The notes below the pieces were generated by a model, which was not told where the DNA came from, did no database searches, and was given only the letters and a program-made list of their open reading frames with translations. Of a stretch of 64,000 bases of DNA, positions 11,499-18,865 are shown in pieces (positions within the stretch are counted from its first letter, which is position 1; each line of letters opens with the position of its first letter). Where the stretch lies: assembly GCF_000789255.1 (NCBI RefSeq), contig NZ_CP009552.1, positions 868,001 to 932,000 of the forward strand, read 5' to 3'. Source of the DNA: Geoglobus acetivorans (lineage in GTDB: Archaea > Halobacteriota > Archaeoglobi > Archaeoglobales > Archaeoglobaceae). Both the position numbers and the translations under genes were made by a program.

Positions 11499-11563
11499 AC
11501 GCCAAGGAAAGCCGGGCAATATTAAAACTTTAAGATTATGAAAGGGACGCAACCATCAGAAGA

Positions 11564-11572
11564 CTATATATA
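11564..11572 (+). promoter_or_regulatory. TATA box for the H/ACA RNA
   Basis: CTATATATA about 25 nt before the predicted 5' end of the guide RNA near 11592. There is no coding start nearby to explain it. Confidence 0.6.
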
Positions 11573-11591
11573 CTTCGCTGAACAGAGATAA

Positions 11592-11655
11592 TCTGCCCGC
11601 CGGCCATGCGTCCCCTGAGAGGATGATGGGGATTCCACAGAGCGGGCAACACTCC
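11592..11655 (+). ncRNA. H/ACA pseudouridylation guide RNA (single hairpin)
   Basis: A single archaeal-type H/ACA hairpin. Lower stem: TGCCCGC (11594-11600) with GCGGGCA (11642-11648). Upper stem: TCCCC (11611-11615) with GGGGA (11628-11632). The apical loop TGAGAGGATGAT (11616-11627) has the UGA...GAUGA K-loop signature bound by L7Ae. Box ACA is at 11649-11651, directly after the stem. The spacing from the upper stem to ACA is 16 nt, as archaeal guides require. The pocket arms are 11601-11610 and 11633-11641. A TATA box lies upstream and a T6 terminator downstream (from 11656). The 5' arm CGGCCATG is complementary to a conserved archaeal 16S segment (CAUGGCCG, near E. coli 1054-1061, from memory); the 3' arm match is weaker, so the target is tentative. 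Confidence 0.75.
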
Positions 11656-11661
11656 TTTTTT
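11656..11661 (+). terminator. Poly-T terminator after the H/ACA RNA
   Basis: A run of six T directly after the ACA box region, typical for archaeal transcription termination. Confidence 0.55.
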
Positions 11662-18501: not shown

Positions 18502-18792
18502 GCTGTGTGATATGGCAAAAATAGATTAAAAATGTTTGGAGTTGGGTTAACCTCCTGCAAGCTCCCAACCCGTAAGTGCTTTCGCAATATCACCTCAGAG
18601 AGTTTCATCCAGATTCAGTGCCGTTTTTCTCCCCTCAGCATTCTGATTGCAGGAGTTTGTACACCATTCAGAAAACCGCACCAATCTCCTCTGCATGGAT
18701 TTCAAACACTTCCTGACCTTGCTGGACATCCCGATCAGGAGAATGACGTTGTCTATGACCTGTTTTGCCGACGAAACAGAAAAAGAACCAGA
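18502..18792. other. Gap between Fic gene and tRNA-Thr, no convincing gene
   Basis: 291 bases. The left edge is the Fic promoter (AT-rich, leftward). GTTGGG (18542-18547) can pair with CCCAAC (18566-18571) around a 17-nt loop, a weak hairpin. A leftward frame (18595-18837) runs into the tRNA and has no recognisable product. The tRNA's 3' side lies at the right. Confidence 0.4.
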
Positions 18793-18865
18793 GCCGCCGG
18801 CGGGATTCGAACCCGCGGCCTGGTGATTACGAGTCACCCGCTCTGACCAGCTGAGCTACGGCGGC
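18793..18865 (-). tRNA. tRNA-Thr(CGT)
   Basis: Reverse strand gives a complete cloverleaf: acceptor GCCGCCG/CGGCGGC, D arm with GCTCAGCTGGTCAGAGC, anticodon stem GGTGA/TCACC around loop CTCGTAA (anticodon CGT, reading ACG Thr), and T arm GCGGGTTCGAATCCCGC. It has 73 nt, no intron and no encoded CCA. Confidence 0.95.

Follow-up and report, generated by a model that had tools for sequence, protein, structure and literature searches.

A free-standing gene that very probably encodes a single-hairpin H/ACA guide RNA for U1008 of 16S rRNA in Geoglobus acetivorans

The stretch of DNA analyzed here (the window, 64,000 nucleotides) spans positions 868001-932000 of the single-contig Geoglobus acetivorans genome of 1,860,815 bases, and coordinates of the element described below are window positions. 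The element is intergenic: on one side lies asd (minus strand, start codon near 11499), and on the other a glmM-like gene that runs on the plus strand from about 11790. The following features were distinguished:

11565-11572, plus strand: TATA box TATATATA, read from the sequence, its centre about 26 nt 5' of the first base of the hairpin
11594-11651, plus strand: H/ACA sRNA hairpin with box ACA, identified with a covariance model (own score 81 bits, E 2.5e-15)
11594-11602, plus strand: lower stem, 5' strand, TGCCCGC paired and CG mismatched in Geoglobus; covariation at 5 of 8 pairs
11603-11608, plus strand: 5' guide arm GCCATG
11609-11618, plus strand: 5' strand of the upper (GA) stem, CGUCCCCUGA, with the G-A pairs of the K-loop at its end; read from the sequence, with covariation at two pairs
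11619-11624, plus strand: apical loop of the K-loop, variable in length and sequence in the alignment
11625-11634, plus strand: 3' strand of the upper (GA) stem, GAUGGGGAUU, including the K-loop UGAU; the G and A that face GA on the 5' strand do not vary in the alignment
11635-11639, plus strand: 3' guide arm CCAC(A)
11640-11648, plus strand: lower stem, 3' strand, GA followed by GCGGGCA, 9 nt before the box; the CCAC-to-ACA distance is 10 nt in 51 of 53 loci
11649-11651, plus strand: box ACA, directly 3' of the lower stem
11656-11661, plus strand: T6 run, read from the sequence as the probable transcription end

The sole RNA gene identified in the window by Rfam or ARAGORN was a tRNA-Thr gene (anticodon CGT, 18791-18865, minus strand). 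A scan for bacterial promoters and terminators, which is ill-suited to archaea, returned nothing on the strand of the element.

The anatomy of the hairpin is that of an archaeal H/ACA RNA, with a pocket between two stems and an ACA 3' of the lower stem. The lower stem consists of seven pairs (TGCCCGC/GCGGGCA, 11594-11600 with 11642-11648), above which the two layers nearest the pocket are mismatched in Geoglobus, CG standing against GA. The upper stem is formed by GTCCCC and GGGGAT and is capped by a K-loop of the form UGA...UGAU, in which the G-A bases are invariant and which is a predicted L7Ae site; the hairpin with K-loop proposed in the initial annotation was therefore recovered in the sequence, and both of its stems covary (below). 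At the top of the pocket, the proximal layer is a mismatch of C with U over a G-U pair, and the ACA lies 14 nt from the pocket when this mismatch is taken as the closing layer, or 15 nt when the G-U pair is taken instead. Both values fall within the 14-16 nt described for archaeal H/ACA RNAs between the upper closing pair of the pocket and the ACA (PMC4652768, PMC7991803). The box itself was correctly placed by the initial annotation, and it is only the 16-nt spacing claimed there that has to be corrected. If the C-U layer is counted, the stacking layers are 10/5/9 and the arms provide 6 and 5 guide bases, which is a fold class described as productive (PMC4652768), and if counting starts from the G-U pair they are 9/6/9.

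The folding energy of the hairpin was not unusual (z = -0.38), as one would anticipate when a hairpin is short and its pocket open, and the case that the structure is above chance is therefore based on conservation and covariation and not on folding energy. BLASTN matches below E = 0.001 were found in 37 of the 55 Archaeoglobaceae genomes, and 37 homologues were used to build an alignment and a covariance model, with 36 distinct sequences entering the covariation test. The number of double-change cells was 27, compared to a mean of 9.7 after shuffling, and none of 500 shuffles reached 27. Paired cells made up 93.7% of the total, a value that fell to at most 56.7% when the partner was slid by one to three columns, and the same two stems were predicted independently by RNAalifold. 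The covariance model extended the matches to 49 of the 55 Archaeoglobaceae genomes, including one (G001) that had been missed by the DNA-level search. The six Archaeoglobaceae genomes that gave no clear model match, even with laxer filters, are all draft assemblies; no significant model match was obtained in G019, G022 and G045, which are rated at least 95% complete and are drafts of 150 or more contigs. Beyond the family, model matches were identified in four of the genomes sampled in the phylum (one belongs to the same order, another to the same class and the remaining two to other parts of the phylum), and since strict filters were applied in that search of 393 genomes, absence outside the Archaeoglobaceae is not firm. 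A sequence-pattern search returned 27 contigs, all titled as Archaeoglobi or its subgroups except for one Candidatus Mnemosynella.

The ten guide bases (GCCATG and CCAC) and the ACA are invariant in all 53 loci collected, a set that includes the 37 loci of the model and was extracted with a pattern that itself required GCCATG, CCAC and ACA. The 16 model matches from outside the training set all satisfied this pattern, ACA included, though the model search carried no ACA requirement, and it follows that no variants were discarded among the loci fetched. Across the same 53 loci all four letters occur immediately 5' of GCCATG and three of them immediately 3' of CCAC, and the loop varies freely. 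One homologue (L037, G033:C191) has a long apical extension in which the motif TGATGGGG is repeated (TGATGGGGGATGATGGGG); its lower stem also differs (TGCCGATT/AATCGGCA), yet it pairs, and its guide arms are unchanged.

Signals flanking the hairpin were also examined across the homologues. In 32 of the 52 distinct upstream regions, the best TATA-like 8-mer was located between 38 and 26 nt 5' of the stem, compared to a mean of 10.5 and a maximum of 18 in shuffles, which indicates that transcription would begin near the stem. The TATA promoter of the initial annotation is thus present as TATATATA and has counterparts at the same distance in other genomes. The T6 end proposed there is likewise present, although termination at a T-run is less general among the homologues: four or more T within 30 nt downstream were found at 28 of the 53 loci, so that T-runs are common and not universal. 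As such, the reading of the locus as an H/ACA guide RNA gene holds as an observation and gains support as an interpretation, in view of the named elements, the breadth of the homologues and a covariation signal above that of every shuffle.

Both guide arms match the organism's own 16S rRNA perfectly at GUGG-U1008-G1009-CAUGGC, the 3' arm pairing with GUGG (1004-1007) and the 5' arm with CAUGGC (1010-1015), and the unpaired U-N is flanked as H/ACA guides require. The complementarity of one pocket arm to 16S rRNA noted in the initial annotation is therefore borne out, and the search of 16S and 23S rRNA with both arms that it had called for gave this site as the only perfect two-arm match, the next best rRNA site having two mismatches. 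The refuting outcome named there, the lack of an rRNA target for both arms, did not occur. When the letters of the guides were shuffled, 49 of 20,000 had any perfect rRNA match. The 5' arm can be extended in the 5' direction to CGGCCATG, which with 11601-11602 included pairs with 16S CAUGGCCG (1010-1017). An alternative target register at U1005 was ruled out by reading the arms against the sequence. Elsewhere in the genome, outside the window, there is a second perfect two-arm site, GTGGTTCATGGC (locus L107, G000:C1:54726-54737, plus strand); with 11 fixed bases, chance would yield about one such site. In alignments U1008 corresponds to position 1004 of the 16S rRNA of G001 and to E. coli U1052, which is located in helix 34 and adjoins the decoding-site base C1054.

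Genome G001, which we take to be Archaeoglobus fulgidus, has a single model match (C1:220966-221023) whose guide arms, K-loop and ACA are those of the Geoglobus RNA, whereas the sequences of the lower stem and the loop differ between the two. In its 16S rRNA (1492 nt), position 1004 is a U between GGUGG and GCAUGGCC. The RNA Af190 (Afu-190) is listed in PMC4652768, which cites Tang et al. 2002, as the guide for pseudouridylation of S1004/U1004 in A. fulgidus 16S rRNA; by alignment this is the same uridine as the target of the Geoglobus guide (U1004 to U1008). Given the exact agreement in the numbering of position 1004 and the shared arms, the G001 homologue is very probably Af190, an identity drawn from the target, and on the same grounds the Geoglobus RNA would be the orthologue of the A. 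fulgidus U1004 guide. Similar particles are known from other guides. Single-hairpin H/ACA sRNAs of Pyrococcus abyssi, such as Pab19 (target 16S U1017), have a pocket, a K-turn or K-loop and a box ANA at 14-15 nt, as here. The Afu46 H/ACA sRNA (crystal structure 3HAX) is of the same particle type and fold class, and differs in its guide and in its target, which is reported as 23S U2639 (PMC4652768). No H/ACA family of Rfam matched the Geoglobus RNA at gathering or relaxed thresholds, and Rfam returned nothing at the G001 locus. The best relaxed Rfam match to the Geoglobus locus, which was on the opposite strand and to a region of the lncRNA RFPL3-AS1, was rejected as a chance match.

Genes for Cbf5, Nop10 and L7Ae were identified in the genome, all with scores above cut-off. 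A weak second match to the L7Ae family (38 bits) was noted outside the window (locus L103, G000:C1:1205762-1206043, minus strand); it contains one in-frame TGA and may represent two genes, a frameshift or a pseudogene.

In view of the anatomy, conservation, covariation, target match and protein genes observed here, we are highly confident that the element is a free-standing gene for a single-hairpin H/ACA guide that is directed at 16S U1008 and is the orthologue of Af190, and we infer transcription, assembly and modification in Geoglobus as follows. Driven by the TATA box at 11565-11572, the transcript would begin near 11594 and terminate at the T6 run. In the resulting RNA the K-loop would be bound by L7Ae, and the stem and box ACA by Cbf5 with Nop10 and Gar1. 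The pocket would then pair with the 16S rRNA bases that flank U1008-G1009, and U1008 (A. fulgidus U1004, E. coli U1052) would be turned into pseudouridine by Cbf5.

Three other explanations for the hairpin were considered. Given its position in the intergenic region shared by asd and glmM, both of which flank it in the closest Geoglobus genomes, it could be a cis-regulatory leader or terminator of these neighbours, the glmM-like gene downstream or the divergent asd upstream. However, the two flanks are recognizable in only a few Geoglobus loci and most homologous loci lack both genes in their vicinity; this turnover of neighbours outside Geoglobus argues that the RNA is not a leader of asd or glmM. 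Moreover, the bases that are conserved are those of the ACA box, the K-loop and the rRNA-matching arms, and the downstream gene has a TATA-like stretch of its own at about 11760, all of which makes a role as leader or terminator exceedingly improbable. The features of the pocket could instead be taken as signs of a decayed or non-productive H/ACA-like hairpin, as a C-U mismatch over a G-U pair closes it, the lower stem is imperfect and the 10/5/9 layering depends on counting the C-U layer. Against this, selection maintains the family and the same closing bases recur widely in it, also in the A. fulgidus homologue, the target of which has been reported as modified, and we regard decay as very unlikely.

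It is also conceivable that the RNA is an H/ACA guide with another main target, either an mRNA or a different rRNA site. The perfect two-arm site at G000:C1:54726-54737 (plus strand) is in favour of this, at about the level expected by chance, but the 16S site is the only perfect match in rRNA and is also the one that was reported for A. fulgidus, so that we give this possibility hardly any credence. As additions to the guide interpretation, it is very improbable that the second RNA is also pseudouridylated by this guide, or that the gene is an ancient guide of the phylum that persisted in the Archaeoglobi and in a few further lineages and was replaced in the others.

The Geoglobus RNA is thus an unannotated guide of a known kind that is missing from Rfam and whose target has already been reported as modified in a relative. 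Since the corresponding guide activity has been demonstrated before in A. fulgidus, the finding is sound but ordinary. It adds a well-supported family of guides whose target in helix 34, next to the decoding site, is defined. The set of 53 loci would let annotators find the guide in new genomes of Archaeoglobi, and it yields the prediction of a single, specific pseudouridine that is open to direct verification.
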